A stretch of DNA of 63,394 nt from a virus. A model generated the notes under the pieces. It saw only the letters and a list, made by a program, of their open reading frames with translations. It did not search any database and was not told where the DNA came from. The position numbers and the translations under genes were made by a program. This document shows, piece by piece, positions 3,910 through 62,834 of this stretch. How positions within the stretch are numbered: position 1 is the stretch's first letter; every line of letters starts with the position of its first letter. Location of the stretch: positions 1 through 63,394 of IMG/VR virus record IMGVR_UViG_3300030060_002858; one strand, written 5' to 3'.

Positions 3910-3911
3910 CT

Positions 3912-9479: not shown

Positions 9480-9658
9480 TGGAAACTGTCGAACAACCAA
9501 CCGATAGCGAAGATAAGATCTGGATTCCTTATGAAGAGATCAAGAAGTATCTTGGTTCTTTACAGGAAACTCTAGAACAAATGTCAAACAGCATTGTTGT
9601 TTCGTTGGAAATGATTGAAACAAATGCAAAACAAATTAAGGAAAATGATAATGAATAA
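9479..9658 (+). CDS. Hypothetical acidic helical protein, 59 aa
   Basis: Begins in a TAATGG overlap with the metallophosphoesterase stop and overlaps the SSB start by 8 nt. Opens METVEQPTDSEDKIWIPYEE and continues as a probable coiled helix (LGSLQETLEQMSNS, LEMIETNAKQIKEN). No family recognised. Its place directly before SSB suggests the replication operon. Confidence 0.6.
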   Translation: METVEQPTDSEDKIWIPYEEIKKYLGSLQETLEQMSNSIVVSLEMIETNAKQIKENDNE

Positions 9659-44600: not shown

Positions 44601-45465
44601 TCTTAGTATTGAAGAGACTCTTGCTATGGCAGAAACTTTTGCTACTCAGTACGGAGAAATTACGCCAAGCACAGTTATGCAAACAGGAGATTCCTCTGCA
44701 AGATTAGTCTTTGCTTCAAATTCTATGGACTCAGACTTCCTTAGAAAATTAAATAATGTAGAAATTCCCTCTACAAGTTACTCGCAAAATAAAACTTCTG
44801 TTGCTATAACCGAAAAACTTAAACGATCTAAACCTAAGTATAGCTCCGCAAGTACGCTTCCTCATTTAGAAGAAACCTTCTTAATCCAAACAGACTCACA
44901 CGAAAACGGTTTTAAAATTAGAATGGCTCAGGATTGGGGAATGGATCAAGAAAGATACAATGATATTATGCAAGAAGCTATTGAGAGAGCAAAAGAAAAT
45001 AAACACGCATCTTTGCCTGATTTTCACTTTGATGTAATATACCAAGCATTAAGTTTAGCTGAAGGTCAAGAAACAGCAGTAGATATGGAGGTAAGACAGA
45101 AAAGAGGTTATTCTTATGGGGGATTGAACTTAGATATTATGGGAAGGAAATCTCTTGAAGAAAAATATACAGTAAGGGTAGCACCTGATATTGGACAGCT
45201 TGCTGGAATGGGATACGGTTCTAACTTTGCTTCTCAAGATATTAGTGTTGAAGAAACAAGAACAAGAGAGGTAGTATCTTTTCCAAAACTAATGGAAGCA
45301 TATAAAATATTTTCCCCAGATCTTTCTACCATGAGTCCTATGGGTCAAGCATCTCAATCTCACTCTGTAGGTTTCGACCTACAAGCAGGAACTTCTAGCG
45401 GAAAAAAAGCAGGTTTTAGAATTTCCTTACCTAACATCACCTTTAAAGGAGACATCATTAAATGA
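41695..45465 (+). CDS. Large internal virion protein, T7 gp15-position
   Basis: 1,256 residues, mainly helical and charged, no membrane segment or known catalytic motif found by eye. It opens FRTPEQEQQLQIDLANAQAR and ends with a small beta segment (FRISLPNITFKGDIIK). In T7 the equivalent site holds gp15, a core protein of the ejected channel; this one is much longer. ATGA overlaps at both ends tie it to its neighbours, so the three core genes are co-translated. Confidence 0.65.
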   Translation: MTYSFRTPEQEQQLQIDLANAQARASVNRKNKQLEDRRGFTANMVELENKKTLRKKKFEEALGKPQGKRYKDIEELYTFLESEYTSEGPEDTVDIVSLDNLRPQLNSTINDLIPTTAPSIFSPTGFRRYENVSFPDAMSFAGENARALISNQAIAELEFEEFIWEQGVSERIKKFRSWEKTSREITSSTKKGNPFDMSLVFADMVLSSIVDDPREFTEEELRAEIETNPVTYSELNLLFNKKIMGSDLLDRSTTFRTAKDSTSVLAAVVLKEFAEKQKDQRLEEISFGQPSRSEDVFGGRDYDPKTGMFYGMNSWVWSGEDNFFKTSIADFERRQDTFRRNMSQVAIDGMIEEEMFLETLETNYKRAKEFIAGTARRVATVFEDSNKKQKARELSRVMQGNLFEIATDAATIKPGETGPEVQLKLGSIEATFDFLIEQEKSGVQTKEEHPKVYELFEKEGILAASEENLTLIERLERSKKFFVDNVVFKFNRMMETMTTPEGRYKVTMINQFKEFVDPSINTFQGVMKKVYTAIYDSDPNLNYYEKIKIMKLYSTGRSAFKKMSSVDENRSAMEKRILEITSPPTGTPPASSVTPLSVFERATKVELGDPARAAEFRLGIITDYKNRMIKNFVNRSGVTENQAVAAINNAVKIDTTGGVPTAYIDYDAVSPLELPSIVEVILNEMETYNVVGIPPILAGLGQQVREGLAIFGTEIDVNTEEGKAAALKGFRTVTALHILFGESGQLREDVVKQILGVSDQKYKGIRNVMAIIKSIHGDTAFGDLSNFYNLQDENQQLVTSERFQIEFQSIARQMLAGLAYAGSDFNLVDGQVSSAIQDLANGSAFLGLGTGLDEESALTDSINKTVGNTGRTIRQNIRRKMQMVFGLPEMATTEESEEVFRPIATRLGTILGLDVAAIEEANYEYINDSEYPMEDLTYILFRELTSNGHVQQKLANYMSARMSVRTAIPLSIEETLAMAETFATQYGEITPSTVMQTGDSSARLVFASNSMDSDFLRKLNNVEIPSTSYSQNKTSVAITEKLKRSKPKYSSASTLPHLEETFLIQTDSHENGFKIRMAQDWGMDQERYNDIMQEAIERAKENKHASLPDFHFDVIYQALSLAEGQETAVDMEVRQKRGYSYGGLNLDIMGRKSLEEKYTVRVAPDIGQLAGMGYGSNFASQDISVEETRTREVVSFPKLMEAYKIFSPDLSTMSPMGQASQSHSVGFDLQAGTSSGKKAGFRISLPNITFKGDIIK

Positions 45466-48400
45466 CAACTCAGGGTATTAATAAGTGGGCAACAGAACCA
45501 CTTCCTTTTTATATGGATAATCAAGAGGAGATGAGAGAATCAGTAGGGCAGTATAACGATTTTGTTCAAGGTTTAAACCCTTTAACAGACGGCGATAATG
45601 CTCTAAATGTTCCTGATCAATTAGTTGTTGACTTAAATACCCAAGAACTAGTTAGAGGTAATTACGGTATTACAGAAGCTATGGCTCTTATGTCAGCTAG
45701 AGGATACTTTGGTGGTATGTTTGAAGACAATCAATATCAACAAAAGTATTCTGCTAATATGCAGCTAGGCATGTACAGGGGTGACAAGTATAAAGAAGGG
45801 GATCTTTTAAAGTTTGGAGCAGACGAAGAAAAACTACTAAGATACTACGCTAAAAAAAGTCCTTGGAACCTTTCAAGACTTTCGGATCCTTTTATAGACG
45901 AGACATTAGATGGCGTAGAAGATATGTGGGACGCTCCTATTTTAAATAACCTTAATGATTCTCCTAATGATTTAATGGAAGCAGAAGCTCCTCCCGATTG
46001 GTCTCCCCAAGAAGCATTAAAGGTTTTGCAATTAAGAGATCCAGAAATGTATGCCGTATATGCTAATAGTTTAGGTGCTTCAAACTTAGAGCAAATTGTA
46101 GGTGAGGCTAAAAACCCATATGATTTTTTCTATACATTAACTGATACGATTCAAACAGCAGCTTTAAATACTACCATTGCAAAGTGGTACGAAGATGCTT
46201 CTAATACAGAGATTGCTTTAGAGTACGCTAGAAACTTTATTATAGAAGGAATTGTTAATGATCCAGACCTCGCAGCAAGCTTAGGAATAACAGCAGGACT
46301 TACTACTATCGGTAGTATTGCCGGTTTAAAGGCTGGTGTTATTGCAACTCTAGCCTATAAAATACCTAAAACTTTATACCAAGGTGTTAAGTATGTTAAG
46401 TTTATAAACATGATTCGCAAAGCAGCTACCACCACCATTAGGTACATGCCTGAAAATATCGGACCTACCTTGATTCAAAAAATCCCAGCCATGAAAAATT
46501 TCAGTAGAGGAGGATTTGTACAAAAGCATTTAATTGCTAATAGAATCGGTGACGCAGGAGAAGGACTTGTAACTGGTGGTTTAGCTGAAGCAGGAAACCA
46601 GTGGAGACAGTCTACTGCTGGAGTAATTGATGAGTTTTCTTATGGCGGCATTTTTAAAGAGGCACTATTTGAAGCAGCCCTATCTCCGGCAATTAACCCT
46701 GCTATTGGGGGTATTTATAGTTTAGGCGGAGGTGCAGTAAACCTTTCCTATATGGTTTCAGATAGTGTTGCTGCAAAGGTTATTGGAGAAAAAGGACACA
46801 AAGCATTTAGTAGATTTATTGATACTACCAAGAAATACCTTAATGCAGATGACGCAATAAAAAGATTAGAAAATGCACAACTATCTTTAGAGTTATCTTC
46901 TCAAGTAAATGATCTTACTTTAGAAGGAACAGAAGTAGAAATTCAAGACGATGAGGCTAAACCAGATAGACCAGATGGAATCCTTAGCATTATACTTGGT
47001 GCTATTTGGGATCAAACTGGACTAAGTAAAGGAGACTTCCTTACTACGGTAAAAGAAATACTAGCAGATTTCCAAGCAGAAGCAGCCGATCCTAGCCACC
47101 CAAGAAATAAACTAGGAGTAGATCAAGAAATTTTACTTTCAGAGATTGCACAAGAAGTTGTTAATAGAAATAGAGATGTAATTTTAGAAGCCAATGACGG
47201 AGATACTTCGTCCTTTGAAAAGATTTTGGGATGGACTCAACATCACTTAAGACTGGCTAGCGATGCTAAAAAAGAAGGAAAGACTTATAAAGAGTATACA
47301 GAAAAAATTATTGCTGATAATGAAGAGTGGAAACTTCTTGCGCCTCAAGTATTAGAAGCAGTCAAAGAAAAGATGGGCGATAAGTTTGACTCTAGTACTA
47401 CAGAAGAAAAACTAGACGTAGCCTTAGAATACATGCAAGAAACAATTCTTAAACAACAACAAGCTATTCGAGATTTAGATACATCTACTAAAGATAAAGA
47501 AGAAACAGCTGATGGTTTAGAAGAAGAACTAGAGGCAGCAGAACCTAAACCTGATCCTAAACCAGAAGACGCTCCTACTGGAGGAGAGCCAAAGGGAGAG
47601 GATGATAAACCAAAAAGAAAACCACCTCCGGGTGACGGTCCTATCGAAAGAAGAGCAGAATTAATTGAAAGATTAAAAAGAATGAAAGAAAGAGCTGAGA
47701 AGGCAAAGGCAGAAATTCAAGAAAAACTAGATAAGGGATTCAAGGGAGTAAATAGAAAAACAAAAGAAAATATTGTAGAGCTTGGTAGAAAGATTGATGA
47801 GGAGCTAGCTTTTGTTGAAGGAGAACTAGAGTCTTTCTTAGAAACTCATGGATTAGAAGACGGTGAAGTTAAAGACTCAATTCAACTTATGAAAACTTTA
47901 GAGACTGAGTTAAATGTTCTAAAAGAAACTCTTTCTAAGGATATTACTGATACAAAGGATGGTATACTATTTGGTTTTGTTCGGTTAAATAAACTAAGGG
48001 CTGCTAGAGAAAAAGCGGGTCTTCTTTTATTCAGAGATCTTAATCTAGAAAATTCTAAAAGAACAGAAGAAGGTAAGCCTGAGCTATCAAAATTACCTTG
48101 GGATAAAACACAAGAAGATACTAGAGAAGCTTGGAAAGAGCTAGCTGAACTAACAAAGGGAGATGAAAGTAAAGCAGCACAGAGAATTAGGCAGTTTGTA
48201 AATGACTTAGAAAGCGGAAAAGAAGAAGGTATTACAATGGGCGGTGTTAAAAATACTTTTACAAACTATATGAATATGCTCGGTACAGTTATGAAAAAAC
48301 ATGAGGAAAGATATAATAAGAGAGAAGATTACAAGAAACATGTGAGTCTATTTAAACAGTACAAAGCAGCTAGAAAGAACTATCAAAGGCTAATGTCTTC

Positions 48401-51400
48401 TATCTATAGATCAGAAACATTAAAAGATATTCAACAGTTTAATGCTATTCAATTACAACAAACAGGGCTAAGAGAAAAGAAAGAGCAAGAGTCTGTATTA
48501 AATGCTAGAAGGGCTTTATTCAATGAGTTCATTGCAGAAAAAGAAGCTAGTGGCGAAGATATTACGATGGAAGAATTTTTAAACTTTTTACATCCTTATT
48601 CAGAACAAGCTCAAACAGAAGCAGCGGCTATTGAACGAGATGCTAGCAAAGGAAAAGAAACTCTTACCATTGAAGAAGCGAAAAGAATTGAAGGCAAGGA
48701 ATATCAATCTGTAAAAGATCAACTTAAGTATTTGTCTATTGGTAAACTTTCCGGAATTAATAAGGGTGGTAGGTTTAAATATGTTCGGGGTAATTGGGAA
48801 CACCAGCATAGTGATTCTGATATTCTAGGAACATCTTATGATCCTGAGTTTGTTCTTAATGAATCAAACTACGGTAAAGAATTAGATACTGATGTAGTAT
48901 TTACCAGAGATTTAAGATCCGATCTAGAAGCTTGGATTGAACTAGAGCAAAAGATTTTAGCTATTGCAAGTCATACAGATCCATCTAAAGGTATTGCTGC
49001 TTGGAGAATTCACGCTGCATTGCCTCCTTACTTTAGAGATTTCTTGGGATTAGGTCCTTATGTGGTGTTTGGTAGAGGAAATATCCTTGGTGCTGAAAAC
49101 TCTGCTTTGATGCCTACTGAAGCTTTAGACCATAACTCGTTAGACCTTACCGATGAAAAAAGTATATCAGAACTTCAAAGATATCAACATCTATTAAGAT
49201 ACGATCCTCAAAAAATCTTGGCTATTATTAGAGCATGGAAAGACCGTGGACTAGCTAAAATTGATGGATGGGAAGCTAGAGAAACATCTTTTATTTTAGA
49301 CGAGCTTTCAAAAGAAATGCAAAACGAAGGAGACCCTAACTCTGCTGCTAACTTATTCTATACTCAAAAACTTTTAGAAAGAGTTCACAATCAATCTAGA
49401 GCTATTAATATGGCGAACTGGACAAAACGCCAAGGAGAAGGTGGCGGTTATATTATAGCCGTTGATCCAGATACTGGATTCCCTACGGAGTTTACCAACA
49501 GTGCTGGAACTTATAAAAGAGAAGCTCTATACCACGCAAAAGAAAGACTACAGTTTCTATTTGGCACCAGAAGATTTACAGAGCTACAACAAGTAGCTAA
49601 ATCTCTAGGGTTACTAACAGAAATTAGTCGAACAAAAGAAGACGGAAGAACAGAAATTATTATACGAGATAGAGAAGGCAATGTAAGAGCAGATGTAGTT
49701 GAGTATCTTACAGAACAAATTGGAGAGCAAACTGATATTAACATTACTGATTTAGGAAATGGTAACGAAGACTATGCATCAGCTCAAATCGCAGGCTACG
49801 GTATAGTAGACTTTATGAGTCAAAAACCAATGCCAGCTGTCCAACAAAGAAGTGTTGTTCTAGATAAAGATGGTAATACTGTTCCTACTGAAAGCAATGA
49901 AGATAGTGAAACCGCTTCTTTACCTACTGATATCCGCCTTCCTCAAGAAGGAGAAACAAACGCAGCTATGCCCATTCCTGTAATGAAACTAGCTGAGTTA
50001 ATTCAAAACTTTAAGGCTAGAGAAAGAATGCGGTATATCTTAAGTAAGGATACTTTTACGGACGCAGAAAGAGCTGCCTATAAAGAATGGGTAGAAGCTA
50101 AATGGTCTGATGTTTTAGCTGGAATGGATCCTGATCCTACCGGAGAAAACGCACAGATCTTTGTAGTTCCCCAAATAGTAGGCGGATCTCTACATGAAGC
50201 TGTAATGTCCCGAGCCGAGGCAAAAGAATTCTTACTAGAACTTATGTTAGATATCCCAAGAAACGCAGAAGCATTTATTCACGACCAAGTTACAAGAAAA
50301 CGCGGAAGTGCTTTAATGTTTAACGAGGGTCAGGGAGAGAAGGAAATTAATGTTTTAGACAAAGAAGGAAACATTGTAACAAAGAAAATTAAAGACCTCA
50401 ATGTTGAGGGTGGTCTTATGTTTGACCTCAGCCACGGGGATCACATGCTTGTTCCTCTAGGACGAATTGGTGAAATCATGGCAATTGAAGCAATGGGTCC
50501 ACAGTTTGCTGGGCTTACCGATATTGTAATAGACAAGGTTGTGCAATACTCAGATGCAGCAAGAAAAGAAGGAACACTAGATGAACTGCTAGCTTTTGAA
50601 AACTGGAGTGACAGAACAGCTAGCGGTGTATTTGAAATGAAACTACTTTCTTTAGCAGGAGATGCAGACTCTACTATTGAAATTGAAGTAGATGGTAAAA
50701 CTAAAAAAGTAAATGCACCTAAACTTTTAGATATGATTAGAGATGGAGTTATAGAACCGGGAACAAAAGCAGAGTCAGATTTTTATCTATCAACAGCAAT
50801 TATTGCGGCACCTTTATTTGCTATGGGTAAGAAAGGCGGACTACAAACTCTATTTGATGTTATTAATAAAAACGATATTCGTAGTGTAAAAGATCTTCAA
50901 GAAAAAGAAGCTGGTCTATCTGAAGGGGATAAAAAGAAGTTAAAACTATTGCGAGAAATATTTAAAGTTCCTGTTATGAGAAGAATTTATGGCGGATCTA
51001 AACCAAACTTTGATGTAGAATTTTCAGAGGGAGGCAAGGGATACGAGGCTTTAAAGAAAGCAGGCATGACTTCTGAAGAAGATATTGCTGCTCTTAAAAA
51101 AGTTTTATTCTCTGGAAACGGAGGAGCTACGCACATCTCTAAGACTATTCTTATTGACTATGCATTGGGAGTTAACGATAGAACTAAATATCTTGTACAA
51201 AAGTATTTGGGTATTGATCAAACCAGAAGCGTACCATTGTTAGACACATGGAAAGAATTAGTTAAACTAGATAATAAAGCCTTGTCTGCTGAGTTAGAAA
51301 GATCTCAAACCCACATCAGACTATTAGAAGATTCTTTAAGACAGAAATATGAGATTGATAATCCTGCTGACTTAACATTTGAACAATGGAAAAAAACAAA

Positions 51401-54400
51401 AGGATATAACAAGAGGTTTGAAAAAGCCAAGGCTTACCTAGAAGAACAAGAAAAAGCAAGTAATCCTATTCACCCCGGTACTGTAGCCTATGAAACATTT
51501 AAAAAAATACTTCAAACCACAGATCAACTAAGTGCTGAAAGTATTGGATACTTTAGAGCACTAAATATTCTTAACTCGCAAGAGTATAGGTTAAACGTAG
51601 ATCGACTACAGTTTGTAGCTCAAAGAGTATTGGGGTTAACAGACTTTAGTGTGCAAGACTTTATGGGATTTGAGCAGCACGCCTTGTATCAGCTTATGTT
51701 GCCCACAGCAACTTCAGGAAGAACATATCCGTTAAACACAACCGGACTAAATCCTTTAGGCATCTCTTTAGAAAGAGTAGCAAGAATGCAACCCTTTGTA
51801 AAGGATGGAGTTAGGTACAATGACTTTATTGATTATGTAGAAAGAAACCCCGGACTAGATGAAGCTGAGTTTAAAAAGGATCTAGAAGATTACCTAACCA
51901 ATCACGACGGAGCAGATGCTTTCGGTGCTTTTGATCTTGAAGATCCATCTCTTAGGAAGTTTGAAACTAGAGAAGAGGCTGAAGCTGCTCTTGAAGATCT
52001 AATGATTAAACAAGAGATGATGCTATGGTCTAGTTATGATAAGCCACCTAAGGAAGTATTTAAAGACTATACCGCAGAAGACAGTGATGAAGGATTCTTT
52101 AATAATCTTCTTACACAGTGGCATCAGCACTCAGAGCAAAGGCACTTGACGCTAAAAGAAGAAATAGCTTTCGAACAAGCCGAAGCAGATAGAATGATAG
52201 CAGACGGCAAGAGACCCACAGATAGTCCAGTTCTACAATTAAAAAATAAAGCTGGTGGGTTGGTCAATAAGAAACTAGTTGAAGCATCTGAAGGAGAGTT
52301 TAGATATCTTCCTTATCATGTTTCTGAAAGAAATCCTTCTTCGGTAATGATTCACACAGCAGGTCAAAGAGGACCACTATCTATGCGTCCTCGATTTAAA
52401 GAAAGACAGTACTATGATATGGGACTATTAAGTTTACAGAAGAGGCACGTTCAAGATAGGATTACTAAAGCAATGGGGCCTATTGAAACTATTAGAACAA
52501 ACGCAGATTCTCTAACAGAAGAAGATGCTATGATTAGCGGAGTTAACATAGGACACGCTCCAGCTTGGGATTCTAACAAACTGCCTCAGGTACTTCCTAC
52601 GCTTCCTAGAGCCATTGCCGCAGATCTTAGAACAGACATGGGTCAGAGAGCAGCTAAGATTTATTATGAAGTTTCTATCTGGGCTGAAGAAAGAGGACTC
52701 GCAGATAAACTAAAAGAAGATCCAGAAAACTTTGTACGTTTTTATATTATTAGAGAAATTGAAGAAGAGCGCAAGAGACAACTTAGAAGGACCAGAGAGA
52801 GTAATATTACAAATGAGAATGATATTATTGCAGCAAGAAATAAATGGATTGGAGGACTGCACGATATTAGTAGATACTCTAGAGATTTGAAAGATCCAGA
52901 AGGTAGGCGAGGTCTTCAATTGTTTACAGAAAGACAATCCTTTGCCGCTGTAAATCCAGCTGAAGAAGGCGAACTATACATGGATCTTCTAGTTAATGTA
53001 GCCGACGAAAACAATCCAGATGGTTTCTTGTTTACTAGAAGTCTTTTAGATGACGCATTTAAATTAGGGCCAGTACCTACGGGTGAAAGAATTATTATCA
53101 CGCCAGAAAATGTATCAGATGAAAAGACAATGGAAGAGATATTTGAATTTAAGGATCTTAACTTAGAATCTTGGGCAGTACAAAATGCTGACTTTAATAA
53201 ATTCTTAGCGGCTCAGTTATTTACAGAAGCAATCGGCAAAGCCATGCTAGAGTTTGAAGGCGGTAAGTATAAGAGTGTAGCGTTTACTCCAGATCAATGG
53301 GAATTTGCAATAGATCCAGAAGACCGCAAACCTTTAATTGCACTAGCAAAACAAATGGTCATGGAAATGCCTTCGTTTGAACTTACAGTAGGAATTGAAG
53401 AGTCGCTATACAACGACGATAGTAAGATTTCAACTTATAGGATGACCATTAACAGAGAAGGCGTTGCTCCTGAAAAAGGAAAGGAACGAGATAAGAAGGC
53501 CGTACCAACTCAACAAAGAAATGTGTTTGGGGCAGCAACGGGCTTTGGTATGCAGGTGATGACTAGAACTAAGTTAAAATCTAAAAAGGCAAAGCTTGCT
53601 CTTACACCAGAGCACAGAATGCAGTTATTCTCAATACTAGAAAACGCTCAAACCATGCAGGGAATTACTTTAAGCAATTGGTTAAATAAAGGATTAGGCG
53701 TGAAGTTAACAGAGGACGGTCAGATTGTTAGAGCGGTTCCTATCCAAGATAGAGTAGCAGATGCAATGGGCTATACTGCTCGTCCTATTAGAGACGCAGC
53801 TATTAACGAAGCTGAGGCCCTAAGAAGAGTTAGTTCGGTAGACGGTGAAAGTAGTGTTAGAATGATTGACGACCCTCTTACCAGCGTAAGGGGAGCTAGA
53901 GTTAATGTAGTAGATTTAGATTACTACGCTAGGGATAACTCTTCTTGGGGAGACGGGTCTATTAATACTGCTTGGCTTGAGTCTTACGTTAGTCCTATTA
54001 CTAAACTAATTCATATGCTAGATAGATCGGGAATTCAAGCCGGTAGTGAATTGGCAGATCTTAAGTTAGAACTACAGTCTTTAATTGCTTTAACAAGAGA
54101 ACAGGACAATATGTCTAGTGTTGTTGTAAGATTAATTGCATTAAAACTAGAAGATCCTTCTTTAGATTTTAGAAAAAATAAAATCAAAATGTTTTTTACA
54201 GACGCAGAAAGAAACGGAGATGACTTTAATACTGCTATTAACAAAGCTGACTCAATTATTTTAAAAATTAAAAAACACACATCAGACTATGGAGTTACTA
54301 GAAAACTTCCCGGATATTACGAAGCTAGGCAGTTTATCACAACTCAAGAATATAGTCCTGCTAACTTTGAAGAAACACTTCTTGCTTTTAAAAAGTATCT

Positions 54401-57400
54401 AGGAGATCCTACATTTGTTGGAACAGATGATCAACTAGAAGATGCACTTAGATTTGCTTTTAGAGATTTAGACGAAGAAAGATTAGATATTGACGAAGCT
54501 ATGAGTTTCTTTGGAGGAGAAAGAATTGCTTCAGAATCTTTAGAATTATTTACTAAAGGAACTGAAGAAGAGCTTTTAACATCACTAGGGCCAGCAATTG
54601 AAGACAATCCTGAGTTAGGATTAATGGTCAGAGGTCCAATAAGAAACTTAAATAAATTAATTAGAGAACAAAAAGTTCTTTCAGAAGAAGCTGGGGTAGC
54701 TATTAAGGCTATGCTATTTAGAGCAAATCAGTTAAATCCAGATATACTTCTAAATCTAAAGTTTGAATTTATTACAGAGCGATTAGAGGGAGTAGCCCAA
54801 GCAGAAAGAAAGGGAGATAATTTTACAATTAGACTAGGCTCTAACTTTAAAACTATTACAAAAGATAATCCTTTAACTGCAATTCAAATAGTTGCTCACG
54901 AACTAGCTCACGTTGCTAGGCTAAAATTTATTGCAGATAACTCTAGAGAATATAATGGGTTATTAGGACTTTGGCAAAGCGACGAAGGCAGGGACATGTT
55001 ACGAAAGGCTGTTCAAGCTTTTCATGGTGGAGTATTTACTTCTGAAGCTAAAAAAGAATATGAAAGATATTTAAATAATCCTGAAGAATTTATCGCAGGA
55101 TTTATGTCATACTTTCTTTTAGGAGACACAAATGTTGAGATTAGAGATTTAACTAAAAAACAAAAGGGAATGTTTAATGAGTTAACTTCTATTGTAAAAA
55201 GAATGATGACTTATGTTTCTAATATTTTAAACAATCTTCAAAATGCGTTTTACACTGGAAATGAAAAGTTTGATAAAGAGGTAAGAGCACTTGCTCTTCG
55301 AGTATGGGGACATGATGCAGCGACAGGAAAGCCTGCCCTAAGACAACTTGATTCTGGTCAAGTTGCAGATGCTACATATGGATGGAGTCAAAGATTTAAA
55401 GATACTAAAGAATTTGTAGTAGACCCTGATAAAGATTTACAAATAATTAAAGGACACAAAGAATTAGCTAGACTAAACTCAAAGGCTGAACTTACAGAAG
55501 AAGAAATTCTTACTAAACATAAAATCAATGACTTCTTATACGCAGAAGGTACTTATGCTCAAGAAAACTTTGGTTTGAATGGCCTATCACGCTCTGATTA
55601 TTTAGCAACTCTTCAACAGTTAAAAGAAAAATATCCATCTAAAAAACGAAGTGATTTAGAAAATGATTCTAGAAATAACGATGAATCTATTATTGATATA
55701 CGAGAGATACTTGCTCAAGGTACTAATAAAGAAAAGGCCACTGCTTTAGCTTACCTTATGGATGCTGTATCAAAAACATACGGAGATCCTATAGCTAAAG
55801 GTCTAGGTGCCATTGGAAACAGTATAGCAGATAGCATTCCTAATGTTAAGCAAGCAGCGGCAAAACAAGCATTATTTAACTTACTACTAGGTGATACCGG
55901 ATCGGGAGAAACATTTGGTGCTGAGTTCTTACTGCCTATTCTTATTACGCAAATGCTAGATGATAATATTGTTACTGCTACGGGTAATTATCTAAACACA
56001 GCAGGAACTCCTTCTGTTAGAACAAATATTCAAAAGCTAGAGACGTTCTCAACAAGTATTAGAACCAGTAAAAATCAAATTGCAGCTGCTCTTAGAGGTA
56101 TTACAGATGTAGCAAAGAGAACAGTATTTGAGTCGTTTGTTAGTGACACCGATAAAAAAGTTATGGCTAAGTTAGACAAACAGCTTATTACAAGTGTAAC
56201 TAAATTAAACGAAGGAGAGGCAGAGTTTACTTTCGATCTTTCAGAAGATGCATTAGGGGTAGCACTAAATGATAAACAAAAAGCAGTTATTCTAAAAGCT
56301 CTTGGAGAAATTAAAAATACGTTTACTCAAATGGCAGAAGATAATATTAGAGACGGAATATCTATTGGTGAATTTGGCGAAGGTTTTACGCAAGTAGTTC
56401 CATATCGTTTAGGCAATTCATTGCGTGCCGAAGATGTAAGAGCACCAGAGTTTAAAGATACAATGACTAGCTTAATTCAAAAAAGATTATCTCAAGGAAT
56501 AGAAAGCGGTCTTCTAGATGGAACAGTAATGGCTGCGGTAGGACTTATCCCGCACTTTGGAAATAACACAGCAGCAAGAGCAGATCTAGAAAGACTTAAT
56601 GCTCAGTATCCTCAATTGGTAGATGCTATTTTAGCCGAAGCAGTTAAACAAGAGGGAGATACTGAAAGACAAACTAAAGAAAAAGTTAACCTATTAAAAG
56701 CAAAACTAAATGATACCGCTAATGTAGATTCTTTTGTAGAGTTACAAGTAGGTACTGGGCGTTTCTTAAACAAACTTGCACAGGGAACAATCACTTTAGA
56801 TAGCATATTTACTAGGGCTAGTCAACGTATTGCTTTTGTAACAGAGTATAAGACTGCTGTAGAAAATGCTAACAAAAGATCAGCAGATGCTCGAAATAGA
56901 TTAGATGCTTTAACAAAAGAAAGTGGAGACATTCGCTCTAATACATTCTTTAGTCCTACCACAAAAGATACTCCTGTAGCAGCCTTTGATAGAGCAGCTG
57001 ATAACCCAATTGAATTTATTTTTAGAAACTTTCACAAGAGAGCTTCTAGGGGAGCGTACTATCCTAACGATAACTGGGCAATCCCTAGTGTAAGAGAAGC
57101 ACTAGAAGCTAATGAAGATATCCAAAAATATTTTGTAACAGACATGGCAGCATTAGCTGAAAATGCAAAACAAGGTCTATTTAATGATATTGCTGAAAAG
57201 AAAATGTTTAGAGAGTTCGGAGTACACGGAAACATTGAGCATGTATTAACTCTTATTAGTAGCGTAGCCTTTAGCGATTATTCAGTAATGGCTCCAGACG
57301 GAACGTCAATAGAAGGTCAACGAGTAAAACAAGTTGTAGAAGTATTAAGAAACAAACATAATGCTTTAAGAAATATTATTGAAAAACCAGAAGGAACTAA

Positions 57401-59141
57401 TACGGGTTCAGTAGAAAGTTCTATTGTAGATTATGCTAATGCTGCAACAAGAATTGCATATGGAGGCAACCTATTCCTTGCTACTACTATTGTAGAAAAC
57501 GGATACAGTGCAGTAGACGAACTAATCGGAAGAGGAAATATTGTAGGATTTTTAAGAAGTGCTTTAGCTCCCTTTAGTCAACTTACAAATAGAACAGAAA
57601 GAGCAAGAGTATTAAAAGATTTTGCTTACCTAATTGAGTCAATGACACAAGGATTTTTACCTGAATACGAAAGACCGTTAGGTACAGAAGGAGATAGTAC
57701 GGTATTAAAAGCACTCAAGGGCTTGGGTTCTGCAAACATGAGGCTTGCTAAGTGGCAACTTAAAAACATTACCGCAGCCCGTGCAATAAATATTAGATCT
57801 TTTATTCAGTCATATTTAAAACCAAACAAAGATGGAACGTCTAAGTTAAGTGAATTAGCTAGATTGTTAGAAGAATCTAATCTTTCTAAATTACCAATTG
57901 AAGAACAAGAACCAGCTTTAAAAGGAATACTAAGAAAGGCAAAGATTGGAACAAACAACTTACCAATAATTTCTTACCTTATTAAAGCAGGATTATTAGA
58001 ACCTACTAGATTAAGTATGCTTTTAGAAATGATGCCTGCCGAAGGACGTTACAGTCCATTTGAAATGACTCAGGAATTGTTTACCACTAAATCTCCTAGA
58101 ACTAATGCAAAAGAGTTTCAACAAAAACTTGACATTATTACAGCCCTTAAAAATATTGAAAGAAGATATGTAGAAGAAGCTATTCTAGCTCCCAATGCAT
58201 TTGATACTGCTACTGGTCCTAGAGGAACATTTGAACAAATCTTTGAAATCTATCGTAGATATCCCGTTCTCTTTGCAAGCCAACAAGTAATTAGAAAGTC
58301 AAGCAGGGTTGGAGTAGTTAGAGCAGGTTTTAGTTTAACTTCCTTGATTCTTTTAGATATGCTTTATATGGCTGCTCTATCAATGGCAGCAGGTAAACCA
58401 CTTGAAGATGTTGTAAAGGATTATGAAGAAGCTCCTCTAGCTAGTGCAGGCAAGCTTCTTTTAAGAACTCCAATCTTTGGTAGATGGTTAGCTATGGTTG
58501 GTCCAGTTTTAGCTAAAGGTCTAGAAGCTATTGAAAAAGGTCGTATGCCATCTGGATATGAACTTACTCAAGCTTTCCAGTCTGGTTCTGGTTTTATTCC
58601 TGTAGCAGCTTTAGGAGCAGCAGCAGGTTCTCTTCTAACAACATTCCAAACTATAGGGGGCGTATTTGGACTTAATGAGATGCCTAGAGGACAAGAACTT
58701 GTTAACTCTTTACGATTAATTCCAGCAGGAGACGCAGCAATTAGACTGGCTATCTTCTCCTTAGCGGGAGATAGTATTGAAAGGAAGAAAAGACGAGGAC
58801 CAAGCGGAGCAGGATCTTATGGAGGACAGCAGCCAGTCACAGGGCTTCACTATGGAATGCACAGAAACGATGCTGCTTTTACTTGGGAAAGCATGTACAA
58901 GGACATGATGACTCCTATTCTAAATGGCGAGTTACCTCAGGTTGTAAAAGAGTATTATAAAGACATAGAACAAATGGATGCAATGCAAGAGCTGGGAGCC
59001 ACGCCCGCCTCTCCACAACCCGCCGCGCCGCCCGCAAAACCCGCGCCGTCGCAGCCAGAGATCACTACACCTAAAGTAGATCCTGTAGACTCTATACTAA
59101 ATCAAGGACCTACCAAGGCACCTGATACTTTACTCGAATAG
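45462..59141 (+). CDS. Giant virion protein with N4-type RNA polymerase motifs
   Basis: 4,559 residues (about 0.5 MDa), 13.7 kb, in the T7 gene 16 position. Hydrophobic segments near 268-305 and 4285-4312; an acidic Pro linker near 693-735 leads into long coiled coils. Polymerase-like core: D1717-R-T-A-S-G resembles motif A (T7 D537-GSCSG), and R1831-E-I-F-K1835-V-P-V-M-x3-Y1843-G fits motif B Rx3Kx7YG (T7 KRSVMTLAYGSK). D-to-K spacing is 118, against 111 in N4 virion RNA polymerase and 94 in T7. The motif T/DxxGR is not clear (candidate 1611-1616) and motif C is not located with confidence (best candidate around H2365). HELAH at 3146-3150 with NPEEF near 3208 suggests a zinc metallopeptidase. 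The last 50 residues are Pro/Ala-rich and G/C-rich in DNA. Likely ejected with the genome to transcribe early genes. Function is inferred. Confidence 0.7.
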   Translation: MTTQGINKWATEPLPFYMDNQEEMRESVGQYNDFVQGLNPLTDGDNALNVPDQLVVDLNTQELVRGNYGITEAMALMSARGYFGGMFEDNQYQQKYSANMQLGMYRGDKYKEGDLLKFGADEEKLLRYYAKKSPWNLSRLSDPFIDETLDGVEDMWDAPILNNLNDSPNDLMEAEAPPDWSPQEALKVLQLRDPEMYAVYANSLGASNLEQIVGEAKNPYDFFYTLTDTIQTAALNTTIAKWYEDASNTEIALEYARNFIIEGIVNDPDLAASLGITAGLTTIGSIAGLKAGVIATLAYKIPKTLYQGVKYVKFINMIRKAATTTIRYMPENIGPTLIQKIPAMKNFSRGGFVQKHLIANRIGDAGEGLVTGGLAEAGNQWRQSTAGVIDEFSYGGIFKEALFEAALSPAINPAIGGIYSLGGGAVNLSYMVSDSVAAKVIGEKGHKAFSRFIDTTKKYLNADDAIKRLENAQLSLELSSQVNDLTLEGTEVEIQDDEAKPDRPDGILSIILGAIWDQTGLSKGDFLTTVKEILADFQAEAADPSHPRNKLGVDQEILLSEIAQEVVNRNRDVILEANDGDTSSFEKILGWTQHHLRLASDAKKEGKTYKEYTEKIIADNEEWKLLAPQVLEAVKEKMGDKFDSSTTEEKLDVALEYMQETILKQQQAIRDLDTSTKDKEETADGLEEELEAAEPKPDPKPEDAPTGGEPKGEDDKPKRKPPPGDGPIERRAELIERLKRMKERAEKAKAEIQEKLDKGFKGVNRKTKENIVELGRKIDEELAFVEGELESFLETHGLEDGEVKDSIQLMKTLETELNVLKETLSKDITDTKDGILFGFVRLNKLRAAREKAGLLLFRDLNLENSKRTEEGKPELSKLPWDKTQEDTREAWKELAELTKGDESKAAQRIRQFVNDLESGKEEGITMGGVKNTFTNYMNMLGTVMKKHEERYNKREDYKKHVSLFKQYKAARKNYQRLMSSIYRSETLKDIQQFNAIQLQQTGLREKKEQESVLNARRALFNEFIAEKEASGEDITMEEFLNFLHPYSEQAQTEAAAIERDASKGKETLTIEEAKRIEGKEYQSVKDQLKYLSIGKLSGINKGGRFKYVRGNWEHQHSDSDILGTSYDPEFVLNESNYGKELDTDVVFTRDLRSDLEAWIELEQKILAIASHTDPSKGIAAWRIHAALPPYFRDFLGLGPYVVFGRGNILGAENSALMPTEALDHNSLDLTDEKSISELQRYQHLLRYDPQKILAIIRAWKDRGLAKIDGWEARETSFILDELSKEMQNEGDPNSAANLFYTQKLLERVHNQSRAINMANWTKRQGEGGGYIIAVDPDTGFPTEFTNSAGTYKREALYHAKERLQFLFGTRRFTELQQVAKSLGLLTEISRTKEDGRTEIIIRDREGNVRADVVEYLTEQIGEQTDINITDLGNGNEDYASAQIAGYGIVDFMSQKPMPAVQQRSVVLDKDGNTVPTESNEDSETASLPTDIRLPQEGETNAAMPIPVMKLAELIQNFKARERMRYILSKDTFTDAERAAYKEWVEAKWSDVLAGMDPDPTGENAQIFVVPQIVGGSLHEAVMSRAEAKEFLLELMLDIPRNAEAFIHDQVTRKRGSALMFNEGQGEKEINVLDKEGNIVTKKIKDLNVEGGLMFDLSHGDHMLVPLGRIGEIMAIEAMGPQFAGLTDIVIDKVVQYSDAARKEGTLDELLAFENWSDRTASGVFEMKLLSLAGDADSTIEIEVDGKTKKVNAPKLLDMIRDGVIEPGTKAESDFYLSTAIIAAPLFAMGKKGGLQTLFDVINKNDIRSVKDLQEKEAGLSEGDKKKLKLLREIFKVPVMRRIYGGSKPNFDVEFSEGGKGYEALKKAGMTSEEDIAALKKVLFSGNGGATHISKTILIDYALGVNDRTKYLVQKYLGIDQTRSVPLLDTWKELVKLDNKALSAELERSQTHIRLLEDSLRQKYEIDNPADLTFEQWKKTKGYNKRFEKAKAYLEEQEKASNPIHPGTVAYETFKKILQTTDQLSAESIGYFRALNILNSQEYRLNVDRLQFVAQRVLGLTDFSVQDFMGFEQHALYQLMLPTATSGRTYPLNTTGLNPLGISLERVARMQPFVKDGVRYNDFIDYVERNPGLDEAEFKKDLEDYLTNHDGADAFGAFDLEDPSLRKFETREEAEAALEDLMIKQEMMLWSSYDKPPKEVFKDYTAEDSDEGFFNNLLTQWHQHSEQRHLTLKEEIAFEQAEADRMIADGKRPTDSPVLQLKNKAGGLVNKKLVEASEGEFRYLPYHVSERNPSSVMIHTAGQRGPLSMRPRFKERQYYDMGLLSLQKRHVQDRITKAMGPIETIRTNADSLTEEDAMISGVNIGHAPAWDSNKLPQVLPTLPRAIAADLRTDMGQRAAKIYYEVSIWAEERGLADKLKEDPENFVRFYIIREIEEERKRQLRRTRESNITNENDIIAARNKWIGGLHDISRYSRDLKDPEGRRGLQLFTERQSFAAVNPAEEGELYMDLLVNVADENNPDGFLFTRSLLDDAFKLGPVPTGERIIITPENVSDEKTMEEIFEFKDLNLESWAVQNADFNKFLAAQLFTEAIGKAMLEFEGGKYKSVAFTPDQWEFAIDPEDRKPLIALAKQMVMEMPSFELTVGIEESLYNDDSKISTYRMTINREGVAPEKGKERDKKAVPTQQRNVFGAATGFGMQVMTRTKLKSKKAKLALTPEHRMQLFSILENAQTMQGITLSNWLNKGLGVKLTEDGQIVRAVPIQDRVADAMGYTARPIRDAAINEAEALRRVSSVDGESSVRMIDDPLTSVRGARVNVVDLDYYARDNSSWGDGSINTAWLESYVSPITKLIHMLDRSGIQAGSELADLKLELQSLIALTREQDNMSSVVVRLIALKLEDPSLDFRKNKIKMFFTDAERNGDDFNTAINKADSIILKIKKHTSDYGVTRKLPGYYEARQFITTQEYSPANFEETLLAFKKYLGDPTFVGTDDQLEDALRFAFRDLDEERLDIDEAMSFFGGERIASESLELFTKGTEEELLTSLGPAIEDNPELGLMVRGPIRNLNKLIREQKVLSEEAGVAIKAMLFRANQLNPDILLNLKFEFITERLEGVAQAERKGDNFTIRLGSNFKTITKDNPLTAIQIVAHELAHVARLKFIADNSREYNGLLGLWQSDEGRDMLRKAVQAFHGGVFTSEAKKEYERYLNNPEEFIAGFMSYFLLGDTNVEIRDLTKKQKGMFNELTSIVKRMMTYVSNILNNLQNAFYTGNEKFDKEVRALALRVWGHDAATGKPALRQLDSGQVADATYGWSQRFKDTKEFVVDPDKDLQIIKGHKELARLNSKAELTEEEILTKHKINDFLYAEGTYAQENFGLNGLSRSDYLATLQQLKEKYPSKKRSDLENDSRNNDESIIDIREILAQGTNKEKATALAYLMDAVSKTYGDPIAKGLGAIGNSIADSIPNVKQAAAKQALFNLLLGDTGSGETFGAEFLLPILITQMLDDNIVTATGNYLNTAGTPSVRTNIQKLETFSTSIRTSKNQIAAALRGITDVAKRTVFESFVSDTDKKVMAKLDKQLITSVTKLNEGEAEFTFDLSEDALGVALNDKQKAVILKALGEIKNTFTQMAEDNIRDGISIGEFGEGFTQVVPYRLGNSLRAEDVRAPEFKDTMTSLIQKRLSQGIESGLLDGTVMAAVGLIPHFGNNTAARADLERLNAQYPQLVDAILAEAVKQEGDTERQTKEKVNLLKAKLNDTANVDSFVELQVGTGRFLNKLAQGTITLDSIFTRASQRIAFVTEYKTAVENANKRSADARNRLDALTKESGDIRSNTFFSPTTKDTPVAAFDRAADNPIEFIFRNFHKRASRGAYYPNDNWAIPSVREALEANEDIQKYFVTDMAALAENAKQGLFNDIAEKKMFREFGVHGNIEHVLTLISSVAFSDYSVMAPDGTSIEGQRVKQVVEVLRNKHNALRNIIEKPEGTNTGSVESSIVDYANAATRIAYGGNLFLATTIVENGYSAVDELIGRGNIVGFLRSALAPFSQLTNRTERARVLKDFAYLIESMTQGFLPEYERPLGTEGDSTVLKALKGLGSANMRLAKWQLKNITAARAINIRSFIQSYLKPNKDGTSKLSELARLLEESNLSKLPIEEQEPALKGILRKAKIGTNNLPIISYLIKAGLLEPTRLSMLLEMMPAEGRYSPFEMTQELFTTKSPRTNAKEFQQKLDIITALKNIERRYVEEAILAPNAFDTATGPRGTFEQIFEIYRRYPVLFASQQVIRKSSRVGVVRAGFSLTSLILLDMLYMAALSMAAGKPLEDVVKDYEEAPLASAGKLLLRTPIFGRWLAMVGPVLAKGLEAIEKGRMPSGYELTQAFQSGSGFIPVAALGAAAGSLLTTFQTIGGVFGLNEMPRGQELVNSLRLIPAGDAAIRLAIFSLAGDSIERKKRRGPSGAGSYGGQQPVTGLHYGMHRNDAAFTWESMYKDMMTPILNGELPQVVKEYYKDIEQMDAMQELGATPASPQPAAPPAKPAPSQPEITTPKVDPVDSILNQGPTKAPDTLLE

Positions 59142-59425: not shown

Positions 59426-59970
59426 TACTATTAGATACTTGCATCCCACAGCTAAATCCTTTTGACGTACATCGATTAGAACTAGAAAATGGATACCTGC
59501 ATAGCACTGGAGGTGTAGCTACGGAAACCCGAGTAGTTGAAATAGATTATTTTGATAATAGGAGAATAGTCACAAACTTGTTTGATTCTCAAGGAACCGC
59601 AACACTTACTAACATAACTAACAATAATCATCAAGCAAGAAAAGTTAAATACCGACATCATGTAAAAATACCATATGGTGATTATGTAGTCACTCAACAC
59701 GATGACGATTACGAAGTATGTGCAATTGATGGAGAAGTTATTTTTTATGTAGAGGTTCCACTGGCTAACGGAGCAACACACGAAGTTGATTGGGTATACA
59801 CTATTGAGATTGAACCATACGGTGACTTAGACGGTGACGGTAGAATCCGAGGATATGATCTTGGTTTGTTTTTTGCTGGCTGGGGACTGCCCGGTGAAAC
59901 TGACTTTAACAATGACGGTATTACCGATGGAGAAGACATGGGTATTCTATTTGAGAACTGGACCGGATAA
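59422..59970 (+). CDS. Protein with C-terminal dockerin-type repeats
   Basis: 182 residues. Residues 1-130 form a beta-rich domain with no recognised family. Residues 134-181 hold two EF-hand-like loops: D135-L-D137-G-D139-G ... D146, then DLGLFFAGWG; and D161-F-N163-N-D165-G ... D172, then MGILFENWTG. This doubled GDxxGDG...DLGxxxxxWG pattern is the type I dockerin form, and the LGL-x4-WG ending is particularly common in Planctomycetes proteins. Dockerins bind Ca2+ and dock proteins to cohesins or cell-surface partners. No signal peptide is seen. ATGA overlap with the membrane protein. Confidence 0.85.
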   Translation: MILLDTCIPQLNPFDVHRLELENGYLHSTGGVATETRVVEIDYFDNRRIVTNLFDSQGTATLTNITNNNHQARKVKYRHHVKIPYGDYVVTQHDDDYEVCAIDGEVIFYVEVPLANGATHEVDWVYTIEIEPYGDLDGDGRIRGYDLGLFFAGWGLPGETDFNNDGITDGEDMGILFENWTG

Positions 59971-60060
59971 ATCGACTAGGGGGTCACGAATTTATCTGAG
60001 GTGATGTATAGTATTGCGCTGTTGCAGTACCCCCCGTAACCCTGTTCGAAAGGATTTGGA
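59971..60060 (+). other. Composition boundary, intergenic
   Basis: From the dockerin stop on, A/T-rich sequence gives way to G/C-rich sequence. The gap holds GGGGGT (59979 region) pairing with ACCCCC (60030 region) around a 45-nt loop and a TTCGAAAGGAT ribosome-site-like motif (60045-60055) that recurs at 60866. No gene seen. The abrupt change could be a recombination joint or an assembly join. Confidence 0.6.
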
Positions 60061-60249: not shown

Positions 60250-60256
60250 TATTCCG

Positions 60257-60292: not shown

Positions 60293-60315
60293 TTACTCTA
60301 ATGGAGGGTATCCAT

Positions 60316-60702
60316 ATGGATGCTACCATTACCGTACATCGGCGTAACACTGGAACGCCGATTGAGTTCAGGACGAACGTCCTGTTCGCGTCTTCTTTCG
60401 AGAAGGCACTTCAGGATGGCAACGCCACGGAGCTGGAGCAGATGATCGTCAAGATCAAGAAGCTTCACGACTACGTGCCGGAGTCCGAAGACAGCTTCGT
60501 CTCGGAACCTCATGTCTTCGACACGATTCGTGCTGACGGACATCGATGGTACTGTGTCGCTCGTACCTGCGTCACGGCTCAGGAGTTTGAGCATCTTGAG
60601 AGAGGTCTGGAAATCATGTGGGTTCCCGAACCCTACCAGACCCTCACCGACTGGACCTTGGACATCAAGGAAGCGTCGAAGGATCTCAAGCTGTTCATCT
60701 GA
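60316..60702 (+). CDS. Hypothetical protein, 128 aa, G/C-rich codons
   Basis: Start at ATG 60316 (MDATITVHRRNTGTPIEF) because GGAGG lies 8 nt upstream; ATG 60301 contains that site itself. Codons end mainly in G or C, unlike all genes before 59,970. Soluble, mixed alpha/beta (LEQMIVKIKKLHDYVPESED, RWYCVARTCVTAQEFEHLE). No family recognised. Hairpins flank it on both sides. Confidence 0.7.
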   Translation: MDATITVHRRNTGTPIEFRTNVLFASSFEKALQDGNATELEQMIVKIKKLHDYVPESEDSFVSEPHVFDTIRADGHRWYCVARTCVTAQEFEHLERGLEIMWVPEPYQTLTDWTLDIKEASKDLKLFI

Positions 60703-60712
60703 ACTCACCAGC

Positions 60713-60742
60713 CCTCACTGTTCCCGAAAGGGAATGGTGAGG
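60713..60742 (+). terminator. 13-bp GAAA-tetraloop hairpin after the 60316 gene
   Basis: CCTCACTGTTCCC pairs with GGGAATGGTGAGG (13 pairs, two of them G-T) closed by a GAAA tetraloop. It ends the 60316 transcript or stabilises it; CTTAAGG follows with no T-run. Confidence 0.7.
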
Positions 60743-60754
60743 CTTAAGGATTGT

Positions 60755-60956
60755 GGTTGCAAAGGATGCAACCAATAGAGATGTCTTCTCTAACACAAGG
60801 TAGTGTGGTGTAGAGAAGAGAGAATGTATGCAGACCCGTACTTGTTGTGCTGGGTCGAGGCCCTATTCGAAAGGATGTAATTTGGGCCTGTTCGTGTTTG
60901 TGGATCTAGCACGTATGCTAGGTTCGGTTCCTAACCCATCTGGTCTCAGAAGAGAC
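60755..60956 (+). promoter_or_regulatory. Structured leader of RNA polymerase 2 (hairpin array)
   Basis: Within 202 nt lie six successive hairpins: GGTTGC/GCAACC (60755-60773, loop AAAGGAT), CTTCTCTA/TAGAGAAG (60785-60818), GACCC/GGGTC (60833-60856), AGGCCC/GGGCCT (60858-60889, loop containing GAAAGGAT), CTAGC/GCTAG (60906-60921), GTCTC/GAGAC (60943-60956, tetraloop AGAA). Two place a ribosome-site-like AAAGGAT in the loop. No stretch like this exists in the A/T-rich part. A folded regulatory leader for the polymerase downstream is the simplest reading. Confidence 0.6.
60824..60880 (+). CDS. Possible 18-aa leader peptide
   Basis: ATG 60824 follows AGAGAAGAGAGA and reads MYADPYLLCWVEALFERM to TAA at 60878-60880, which falls in the loop of the 60858-60889 hairpin. 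Ribosomes reading it would disturb two of the leader hairpins. Only position and ribosome-site fit support it. Confidence 0.3.
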   Translation: MYADPYLLCWVEALFERM

Positions 60957-60980
60957 AGAAAGAATTTACTCTATGAGTAA
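60882..60980 (+). CDS. Possible 32-aa leader protein coupled to RNAP 2
   Basis: TTG 60882 lies 6 nt after GAAAGGA. The frame stays open (LGLFVFVDLARMLGSVPNPS ...) to TAA 60978-60980, overlapping the ATG of RNA polymerase 2 by 8 nt. The polymerase start has only a weak ribosome site, so coupling to this reading frame would explain its translation. Tentative. Confidence 0.3.
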   Translation: MGLFVFVDLARMLGSVPNPSGLRRDRKNLLYE

Positions 60981-62811
60981 GCTCAAGATGGCTAAGGACT
61001 TGAGGCACAGGATCCGCAGCTATGCGGACTCCCTCCTCCAGTCCAAGCTCAAGTGGTGGCTGGAGGACAAGAAGTCCGAAAGCTGGATCATGTCCGAGTT
61101 GTCCATCCCGGTGTTCATGCAGTTCCGGGATGACCTCACCCTCGATACCACTCCCATCAAGATCGATGGCAAGGAGTCTCGTCTCCTTGAGGTGGACGAT
61201 CTCAAGTCCGTTCAGCGAGAGATCTTCATCGCCCTCGATCAGAACATGGAGCGGTTGGAGTTGGACGGCTGGGAAGCTCCCCAGCGTCGTCTGGCTCATC
61301 GCACGCCTCCGACCCTCGATGGTCAGTTCGAGCCTGTGGTCGCTCGCAGGGGGGATCTCAAGATCTCCTCGGAGCAGAAGCAGGCCATGCAGCATCTCAC
61401 CAACACGCCTTGGGTCATCAACCAGAAGAACTGGGATGACATCAAGGAGTTCAGGGAGAGTCTGTCGGACGAGGATCGTAACAAGATCTTCTACGACTAC
61501 GAGGACGAAGAGGTCTCGGCTCTGATGACGGAAGAGGAACAGAGCGGCGACAAGCTCGCTTCTCTCTTCGACCGCATCGGAGACACGATCTTCTTCTTGG
61601 TCACCCGGAGGATGGATGAGGCGGGGCGTATGTATCCCTGTCCCATGCATCCGGTCTACAGCCGGTGGCTGCGGTGCGTCTTCCAGTTCCCCTCCCAAGA
61701 GTTGACGGAGGACGGCTGGAAGTTCCTGCGGAAGCACATCAAGGAGTCCTACGGACTCTGCAACGATGCCAAGCGGGATGCGTGGGCGAGGAACTGCGAC
61801 CGGGATCCCCAGAAGCTCTTCACCGAGAAGGGCAAGAAGGGTGCTGATGAGCTGGCTGCTGCACGTGGCTGGCTCGAGGCACGGGAAACCGGAGCCACTG
61901 GCTACACCGTCTCCAGAGACTTCGTGGCTCAGGGCATGGGACTGATCGCGGCAAGAGAAGGATGCCCGTGGCATCACGATCTCGTCAACGTCAATTCCGA
62001 CCAGTTCGTCTCGGCACACGATCGGTTCTCCGGTCGTATGCAGGACATGATCCGTAACTTCAGGATCCACAGCTTCGATGCTCTCAAGGGCATCTCCAAG
62101 AGCTGCATCACCCCCGGCATGTATGGGGGTGGCGGGAGTGCGATCTCCTGCAAGCTCACGGACATGTCCAAGGATGCCTTCGGTGAGTGGAACTTCGGCG
62201 AAGACGGGAAGAAGTTGCCCGAAATCGACCCGATCCTGCTCGACTACATCGGTAAGGACTTGTCCCCCGATGAGCAGATGGATGCTATCTTCAGCCTCTC
62301 GAAGAAGCTGACCCGCATCCTCCACTCGACCTTCCCGTTCCTCAGTCCCTATCAGGAAGCGGTTCGCCGCCACTGGAAGGGACACATCCAGAACGGCAAG
62401 TTCCCGGTCTTCACCGGAACCGATGGCTACGAGTACCACTCCTCTCCGTTCAACGTGAACAAGAAGTTGACCCGTTCGGTCAGGTTCTCTCGCTACCGCG
62501 ACGGCAAGAGGGTGGGGCAGCCCAGCGTTCAGTGCTGGCTGCACCAGCTGGAAGAGTCCGGCACGCCCATGTGTGCCAAGATCATCTTCATGCTGGACAG
62601 GTTGATCGCGATTCGGATCATCCTTGCACTCGCCAAGCGGGGCATTCATGTCTGCTCCATCCACGATGCGTTCCTCGTTCACCCGAACTACGGATACATC
62701 TTGGAGCAGGTGGCGACCGAGGCGTACAACTCCGTCATGTCGGAGAACGCCGATGTCATCGGTAGGATCTACCACGCCCTGCCGAACGATGCTGTCCTCC
62801 TGAGGGCCTAG
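60973..62811 (+). CDS. Divergent T7-type RNA polymerase (RNAP 2)
   Basis: 612 residues, much shorter than T7 (883). LTNTPWVINQKNWDDI (about 142-157) matches the NTPWxIN segment of the family. Catalytic motifs: D215-E-A-G-R219-M-Y (DxxGR), motif A RD316FVAQGMG, motif B SK376SCITPGMY384-GGGG (the usual upstream Arg is Lys), motif C IH564-D565-AF. K-to-motif C distance (189) is near that of T7 (181); A-to-B is short (60). The N-terminal promoter/leader domain is reduced to about 130 residues. Codons end in G/C, unlike RNAP 1. It would transcribe its own set of phage genes. A long antisense open frame over it is a codon-bias shadow. Confidence 0.88.
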   Translation: MSKLKMAKDLRHRIRSYADSLLQSKLKWWLEDKKSESWIMSELSIPVFMQFRDDLTLDTTPIKIDGKESRLLEVDDLKSVQREIFIALDQNMERLELDGWEAPQRRLAHRTPPTLDGQFEPVVARRGDLKISSEQKQAMQHLTNTPWVINQKNWDDIKEFRESLSDEDRNKIFYDYEDEEVSALMTEEEQSGDKLASLFDRIGDTIFFLVTRRMDEAGRMYPCPMHPVYSRWLRCVFQFPSQELTEDGWKFLRKHIKESYGLCNDAKRDAWARNCDRDPQKLFTEKGKKGADELAAARGWLEARETGATGYTVSRDFVAQGMGLIAAREGCPWHHDLVNVNSDQFVSAHDRFSGRMQDMIRNFRIHSFDALKGISKSCITPGMYGGGGSAISCKLTDMSKDAFGEWNFGEDGKKLPEIDPILLDYIGKDLSPDEQMDAIFSLSKKLTRILHSTFPFLSPYQEAVRRHWKGHIQNGKFPVFTGTDGYEYHSSPFNVNKKLTRSVRFSRYRDGKRVGQPSVQCWLHQLEESGTPMCAKIIFMLDRLIAIRIILALAKRGIHVCSIHDAFLVHPNYGYILEQVATEAYNSVMSENADVIGRIYHALPNDAVLLRA

Positions 62812-62834
62812 CCTCAAGTCCTACACACCACGAT

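Follow-up and report, generated by a model that had tools for sequence, protein, structure and literature searches.

A compact second T7-type RNA polymerase predicted beside a full-length T7-like enzyme in a clade of uncultured phages

The stretch of viral DNA analyzed here (IMGVR_UViG_3300030060_002858, 1 to 63,394; hereafter the window, 63,394 nt in full, to whose positions all coordinates refer) encodes a compact enzyme, RNAP2, which by sequence and fold is a T7-type RNA polymerase with predicted activity. An earlier note on this DNA had described it as a second, compact T7-type polymerase and the description holds, since the DxxGR, A, B and C motifs are all there, the N-terminal region is short and a full-length T7-like enzyme (RNAP1) is found in the same phage. 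Phages are generally credited with a single T7-type polymerase or with the N4 pair, virion RNAP plus RNAPII. The present case suggests one phage using two polymerases of its own for different gene sets. The phage is one of a clade of T7-related phages, uncultured and about 65 kb in size. It has a T7-like gene set (packaging, portal, capsid and tail proteins, primase/helicase, DNA polymerase and a Gp2.5-like single-stranded DNA-binding protein) and distant relatives among isolates (terminase about 40% and RNAP1 28% identical). Near the window start, in an AT-rich region at 2478-4335, there are five genes for tRNAs (Lys, Ile, Met, Arg and Leu). A clue to the host was sought in bacterial genomes and none was found. 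The features discussed are collected in Table 1.

Table 1. Positions in the window of the two polymerases, their motifs and the surrounding elements.
Feature	Coordinates	Strand	Remarks
RNAP1, full-length T7-like RNA polymerase, 818 aa	6125..8581	+	Pfam RNA_pol 6.9e-81; phrog_414 3.9e-157
Gp2.5-like ssDNA-binding protein, candidate helper	9615..10184	+	phrog_112 5.2e-11
Giant protein, 4559 aa, upstream of junction	45462..59141	+	RNAP status unsupported
Junction element AATCGACTAGGGGGTC..GAATTT..CCCCCC..CCC	59970..60042	+	Single copy in window
GC-rich early island, GC 0.45-0.62, cut by contig end	59986..63394		Same island in G001, G002, G005, G006, G007
133-aa gene, upstream of RNAP2	60301..60702	+	89% identical in G001, dS 0.06
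RNAP2 untranslated leader, about 270 nt, several hairpins	60703..60972	+	Some stems covary, three relatives
RNAP2, compact single-subunit T7-type RNA polymerase, 612 aa	60973..62811	+	ORF and homology
DxxGR motif, DEAGR, residues 215-219	61615..61629	+	R219 invariant in 13 RNAP2s and in 30/30 aligned RNAPs
Motif A, catalytic Asp D316 (RDFVAQG)	61918..61920	+	Invariant in RNAP2 alignments
Motif B, K376-x7-Y384 then GGG	62098..62124	+	K and Y invariant
Motif B, K376 codon	62098-62100	+	ORF coordinates
Motif B, Y384 codon	62122-62124	+	ORF coordinates
Possible counterpart of T7 specificity loop (beta-hairpin 33-67 residues before motif C)	62470..62520	+	Inference
Motif C, H564-D565	62662..62667	+	D565 invariant in 13 RNAP2s

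Several comparisons identify RNAP2. It matches PHROG 2051 ("RNA polymerase") with E=1.6e-8, and among solved structures the N4 RNAPII large subunit comes closest (PDB 6dt7_B, E=2.9e-4), aligned in two colinear stretches. With hhalign, the RNAP2 family profile gave 99.8% and E=1.4e-30 against T7-like RNAPs, positions 109-566 falling on T7-like columns 275-773, 98.8% against N4 gp16 and 94.4% against N4 gp15, where the DxxGR region is in register. A Foldseek search with the RNAP2 model retrieved POLRMT (E=9e-9) and T7 RNAP (E=2e-7), the top matches listed being all single-subunit RNAPs, and among viral models phage RNAPs ranked first. The similarity does not reach over the whole family length, N-terminal domain included, since phrog_414 gave E=0.0095 across 63 residues, and a Pfam search of RNAP2 gave no match, RNA_pol included. 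Relatives were detected neither by tblastn of RNAP2 against isolate phages nor by scanning viral contigs with its single sequence. An antisense ORF of 623 aa (60946-62817, minus strand) overlaps the gene and is most probably a side effect of the high GC3; homology backs the plus strand only.

We have aligned RNAP2 with 12 others that are 15-66% identical to it, and the only invariant columns across the 13 are R219, D316, K376, Y384 and D565, that is, the DxxGR arginine and the catalytic residues of the T7-type motifs A, B and C. In a 30-sequence alignment the same five residues coincide with those of T7, N4 RNAPII and RNAP1. The motifs thus stand in the canonical order of the superfamily with its catalytic D, K, Y and D, and profile and fold similarity covers the catalytic domain, the fold with moderate model confidence. 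There are also local departures: motif A of the window RNAP2 is without the usual SG pair and the motif C histidine is substituted in some relatives. The interval from motif B to motif C is intact, with 181 residues against 173 in T7 RNAP, and may hold a candidate specificity-loop hairpin; AlphaFold predicts strands at residues 507-515 with low confidence, and the segment in Table 1 was placed by comparison with the position of the loop in T7 RNAP.

The base composition of this part of the window is very different, with a GC of 0.59 versus 0.38 and an abrupt rise from about 59,970-60,050. GC3 is 0.81 in RNAP2 versus 0.31 in RNAP1, and codon usage is uncorrelated between them (r = -0.09), bearing out what had been noted earlier, while RNAP1 and the giant gene correlate with r = 0.90. 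The composition had also been called foreign, which stands as a measurement of GC3 and codon use but not as a recent import, the island being common to relatives in the clade whose RNAP2 is only 16-66% identical. Since the island accompanies RNAP2 in such distant relatives, its composition is an old property and not the mark of a recent transfer. One guess is that the island is GC-rich to match, at the early stage of infection, the codon usage of a GC-rich host. An Rfam search of the island gave no match.

Abrupt changes in GC could also arise if the tail with RNAP2 were another genome joined through assembly error, which the earlier note had named as the refuting case, and the window is moreover cut mid-gene at both ends, with RNAP1 and RNAP2 at opposite ends of the contig. 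We have looked at relatives, collected via the terminase, the giant protein and a junction 16-mer, whose records were then searched with the family profiles. The 16-mer, AATCGACTAGGGGGTC (59970-59985), lies at the GC boundary and is found exactly in 24 other viral contigs (loci L069-L092); a bare 16-mer could recur randomly in a collection this large, but a longer element around it is common to all 24, so these matches are not due to chance. Wherever it can be read, the gene order is constant, i.e., giant gene, junction element, compact RNAP2 and RNAP1. In G001 an RNAP2 homologue (37% identical) and then RNAP1 (80%) come after the giant gene, in G002 likewise an RNAP2 homologue (66%) and then RNAP1 (51%), and the same order appears in G005, G006 and G007, found via the giant, with G005 stopping after RNAP2. 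The two enzymes stand in order on one unbroken contig in G001, G006, G007 and G017, and in G020 the RNAP2 gene runs across the contig ends, which is what a circular map would give.

Altogether, the search for other genomes with both enzymes, which had been suggested as a check, yielded 14 further contigs (G001, G002, G006, G007, G008, G011, G015, G017, G018, G020, G021, G022, G026, and G027), or 15 with the window, although some are near-copies (e.g., G008, G011, G021) and the independent lineages are fewer than the contig count. Every complete compact RNAP2 has a short open frame, in the range 585-669 aa. Fragments G012, G024 and G025 have RNAP2 only, G013 and G019 RNAP1 only, and G014 and G023 neither enzyme; G009, G010 and G016 carry RNAP1 with a second RNAP of 705-722 aa, and the compact RNAP2, looked for in these three, was not found. 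With the junction element in 24 other contigs, the giant-element-RNAP2 arrangement found again among the relatives and both enzymes in 14, a joining of separate genomes is contradicted to the extent that assemblies allow, and we consider it extremely improbable; on the sequence record, the GC-rich tail belongs to the phage. The 705-722-aa second RNAP is closer to RNAP1, and in G010 (L072:6048-8213) and G016 (L078) it is located 4-5.5 kb past the junction element. The 82-kb record G002 has two tail and terminase gene sets about 50% alike and an RNAP1 over two frames, and is perhaps made of two related phages joined by assembly.

The junction marks the end of the late genes and the start of the GC-rich early block, with RNAP2 just downstream, and is a possible promoter, genome end or origin. 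Its G-tract and C-tracts are able to pair around a variable inner hairpin. Hairpins are also present in the RNAP2 leader (60703-60972) and upstream of the 133-aa gene (60221-60282), with pairing kept through base changes in two relatives, a comparison of three sequences only. Between the window and G001, dS is 0.06 for the 133-aa gene and about 2.5 for RNAP1, a contrast that makes a recent recombinational exchange of the 60301-60702 segment likely. On the other side of the junction, the protein at 59422-59970 ends in a dockerin-like repeat (DLDGDGRIRGYDL...DFNNDGITDGEDM) and the gene ahead of it has a weak spanin match.

RNAP2 diverges very fast, being 37-38% identical between phages whose RNAP1s are 80% identical. 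Its dN/dS is about 0.26 versus the G002 homologue and 0.47 versus that of G001, far above the 0.06 of RNAP1 for the window-G001 pair, all rough values with synonymous sites near saturation. These ratios indicate that RNAP2 is kept by purifying selection, and its fast divergence could reflect relaxed selection. Such a pace might also be expected of a degenerating, non-functional gene, but the similar open-frame length in all complete members, the invariant catalytic residues and a dN/dS below 1 make this very improbable.

As to its origin, RNAP2 could be a lineage of its own or else descend from an early copy of RNAP1 whose N-terminal domain was lost and which then diverged rapidly. The second history is compatible with the same function, and we regard it as a real possibility without favoring it. 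The AU test does not reject a tree that joins RNAP2, RNAP1 and the 705-722-aa second RNAPs (p-AU 0.136), the two of these longer second enzymes included in the tree fall with RNAP1 (83/96), the place expected of an intermediate, and the best-conserved RNAP2s (L077, L080, and L074) match the T7 profile strongly, with E down to 1.8e-26. Against it, the best tree sets RNAP2 as one group (71/70) outside T7-like enzymes and RNAP1 (93/97), and also outside the N4 RNAPII clade (100/100), long branches making either placement of RNAP2 unsure, and its base composition is opposite to that of RNAP1.

The N-terminal region of RNAP2 is reduced, with about 214 residues ahead of DxxGR compared to about 420 in T7 RNAP. 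Confidence in the AlphaFold model is modest, with a mean pLDDT of 57, a pTM of 0.57 and pLDDT values below 50 for the greater part of the first 130 residues, so that the absence of the promoter-binding N-terminal domain is deduced from length and alignment. A different promoter recognition is a plausible consequence. N4 RNAPII likewise has a truncated N-terminus and works with the ssDNA-binding protein gp2 on AT-rich promoters that are melted, with a minimal promoter reaching from -7 to +2 (PMC4496689). We consider it likely that RNAP2 is a working second polymerase of the early phase, which would use a melted or short start site with a helper for a limited gene set, leaving the AT-rich bulk to RNAP1. 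Judging from the position of its gene alone, it would be produced early in infection. Devoid of the T7 promoter-recognition domain, it would presumably be incapable of recognizing and opening a long double-stranded promoter unaided, and because most of this region is missing it is likely to depend on melted DNA or on a helper. Its start site would probably be short or pre-melted and assisted, as in N4 RNAPII with its ssDNA-binding cofactor, and the Gp2.5-like protein is a candidate for this role. The genes served by RNAP2 would be a limited early or middle set, and RNAP1 would transcribe the bulk of the genome.

Repeated promoters for RNAP1 or RNAP2 were looked for and none was recognized, and N4-like hairpin promoters showed no excess in the window (16 hairpins with 3-nt loops versus 19.8 expected). 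RNAP2 is small, has no recognizable promoter-binding domain and adjoins a single-copy structured element that is a possible origin or genome end, all of which would also suit a primer-making or replication-linked polymerase instead of a messenger-making one; we find this role quite unlikely, given that the phage already has a primase/helicase (phrog_239, 2.4e-158). A bolder version of the early-polymerase proposal has RNAP2 founding a third lineage of phage single-subunit RNAPs and sharing with the T7-like RNAP a two-polymerase program, GC-rich island versus AT-rich rest, in which the junction, a single structured site that hardly varies, would be the program start or a physical end; we put this forward as a doubtful but conceivable extension.

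The giant protein had been counted as a polymerase too, giving three single-subunit enzymes in one phage. We find no support for it as a third RNAP, and two polymerases are supported. Its motif-like pieces are in non-canonical order, hhalign of the giant against N4 vRNAP, T7-like enzymes, gp16 and RNAP2 gave 0.2-1.0% (a weak negative on the vRNAP side, which is a single sequence), a PDB profile search gave no match, and AlphaFold (pLDDT 39) offers no support for an RNAP fold. The pieces, conserved [HY]D, D..xSG, R-x3-K-x7-YG and SxR stretches at about aa 1607-2090, recall RNAP motifs in an unusual order, and a conserved zinc-protease-like HE[LIV][AGS]H motif is found at aa 3146. The giant resembles the N4 virion RNAP (gp50) in being a very long late protein, and its R-x3-K-x7-Y-G is similar to motif B, but it has no profile similarity to gp50 and the ExDGxxxG motif of N4 vRNAP, looked for in it, is absent. 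No relative of its C-terminal part was found among isolate phages.

Full-text literature searches for phages that encode two RNAPs of the T7-like or single-subunit kind turned up N4-like phages but no T7-like phage having another such enzyme; coverage is thin for subscription journals and preprints, and the novelty of a second T7-like enzyme is thus provisional. Phages that combine two T7-type enzymes, with no giant virion RNAP in the pair and with one member, RNAP2, fast-changing and lacking most of the usual promoter-recognition region, offer a natural experiment in the minimal needs of a polymerase and in the way two polymerases may split one genome. If active, the compact RNAP2s are also candidate small laboratory polymerases.

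Among known systems, N4 RNAPII (gp15 + gp16, PDB 6dt7) is like RNAP2 a compact second enzyme of its phage with a truncated N-terminal region, and RNAP2 might be a single-chain member of that family, with gp15 and gp16 in one polypeptide. N4 gp16 is indeed its best single-sequence PDB match and aligns to residues 248-594, the end of gp15 aligns to the DxxGR region (the gp15 profile being matched over its last third only) and the total size is similar (612 vs 673). However, the N4 RNAPII clade excludes RNAP2 with full support, the RNAP2 family profile is nearer to T7-like enzymes than to gp16, and there is one 612-aa gene and not two subunit genes, all of which makes membership unlikely. N4 RNAPII is a heterodimer partnered by a virion RNAP, whereas RNAP2 is one chain and is partnered by a standard T7-like RNAP. 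With T7 RNAP and the other RNAPs of Autographivirales, RNAP2 has in common the catalytic core and the motif order, although it has about half of the N-terminal region, low identity and an opposite base composition, and is an extra enzyme in a phage already provided with a standard one. In size and predicted fold (BFVD), RNAP2 is like the RNAPs of phiEcoM-GJ1 (648 aa) and Shewanella phage SppYZU05 (527 aa), which are about 14% identical to it.
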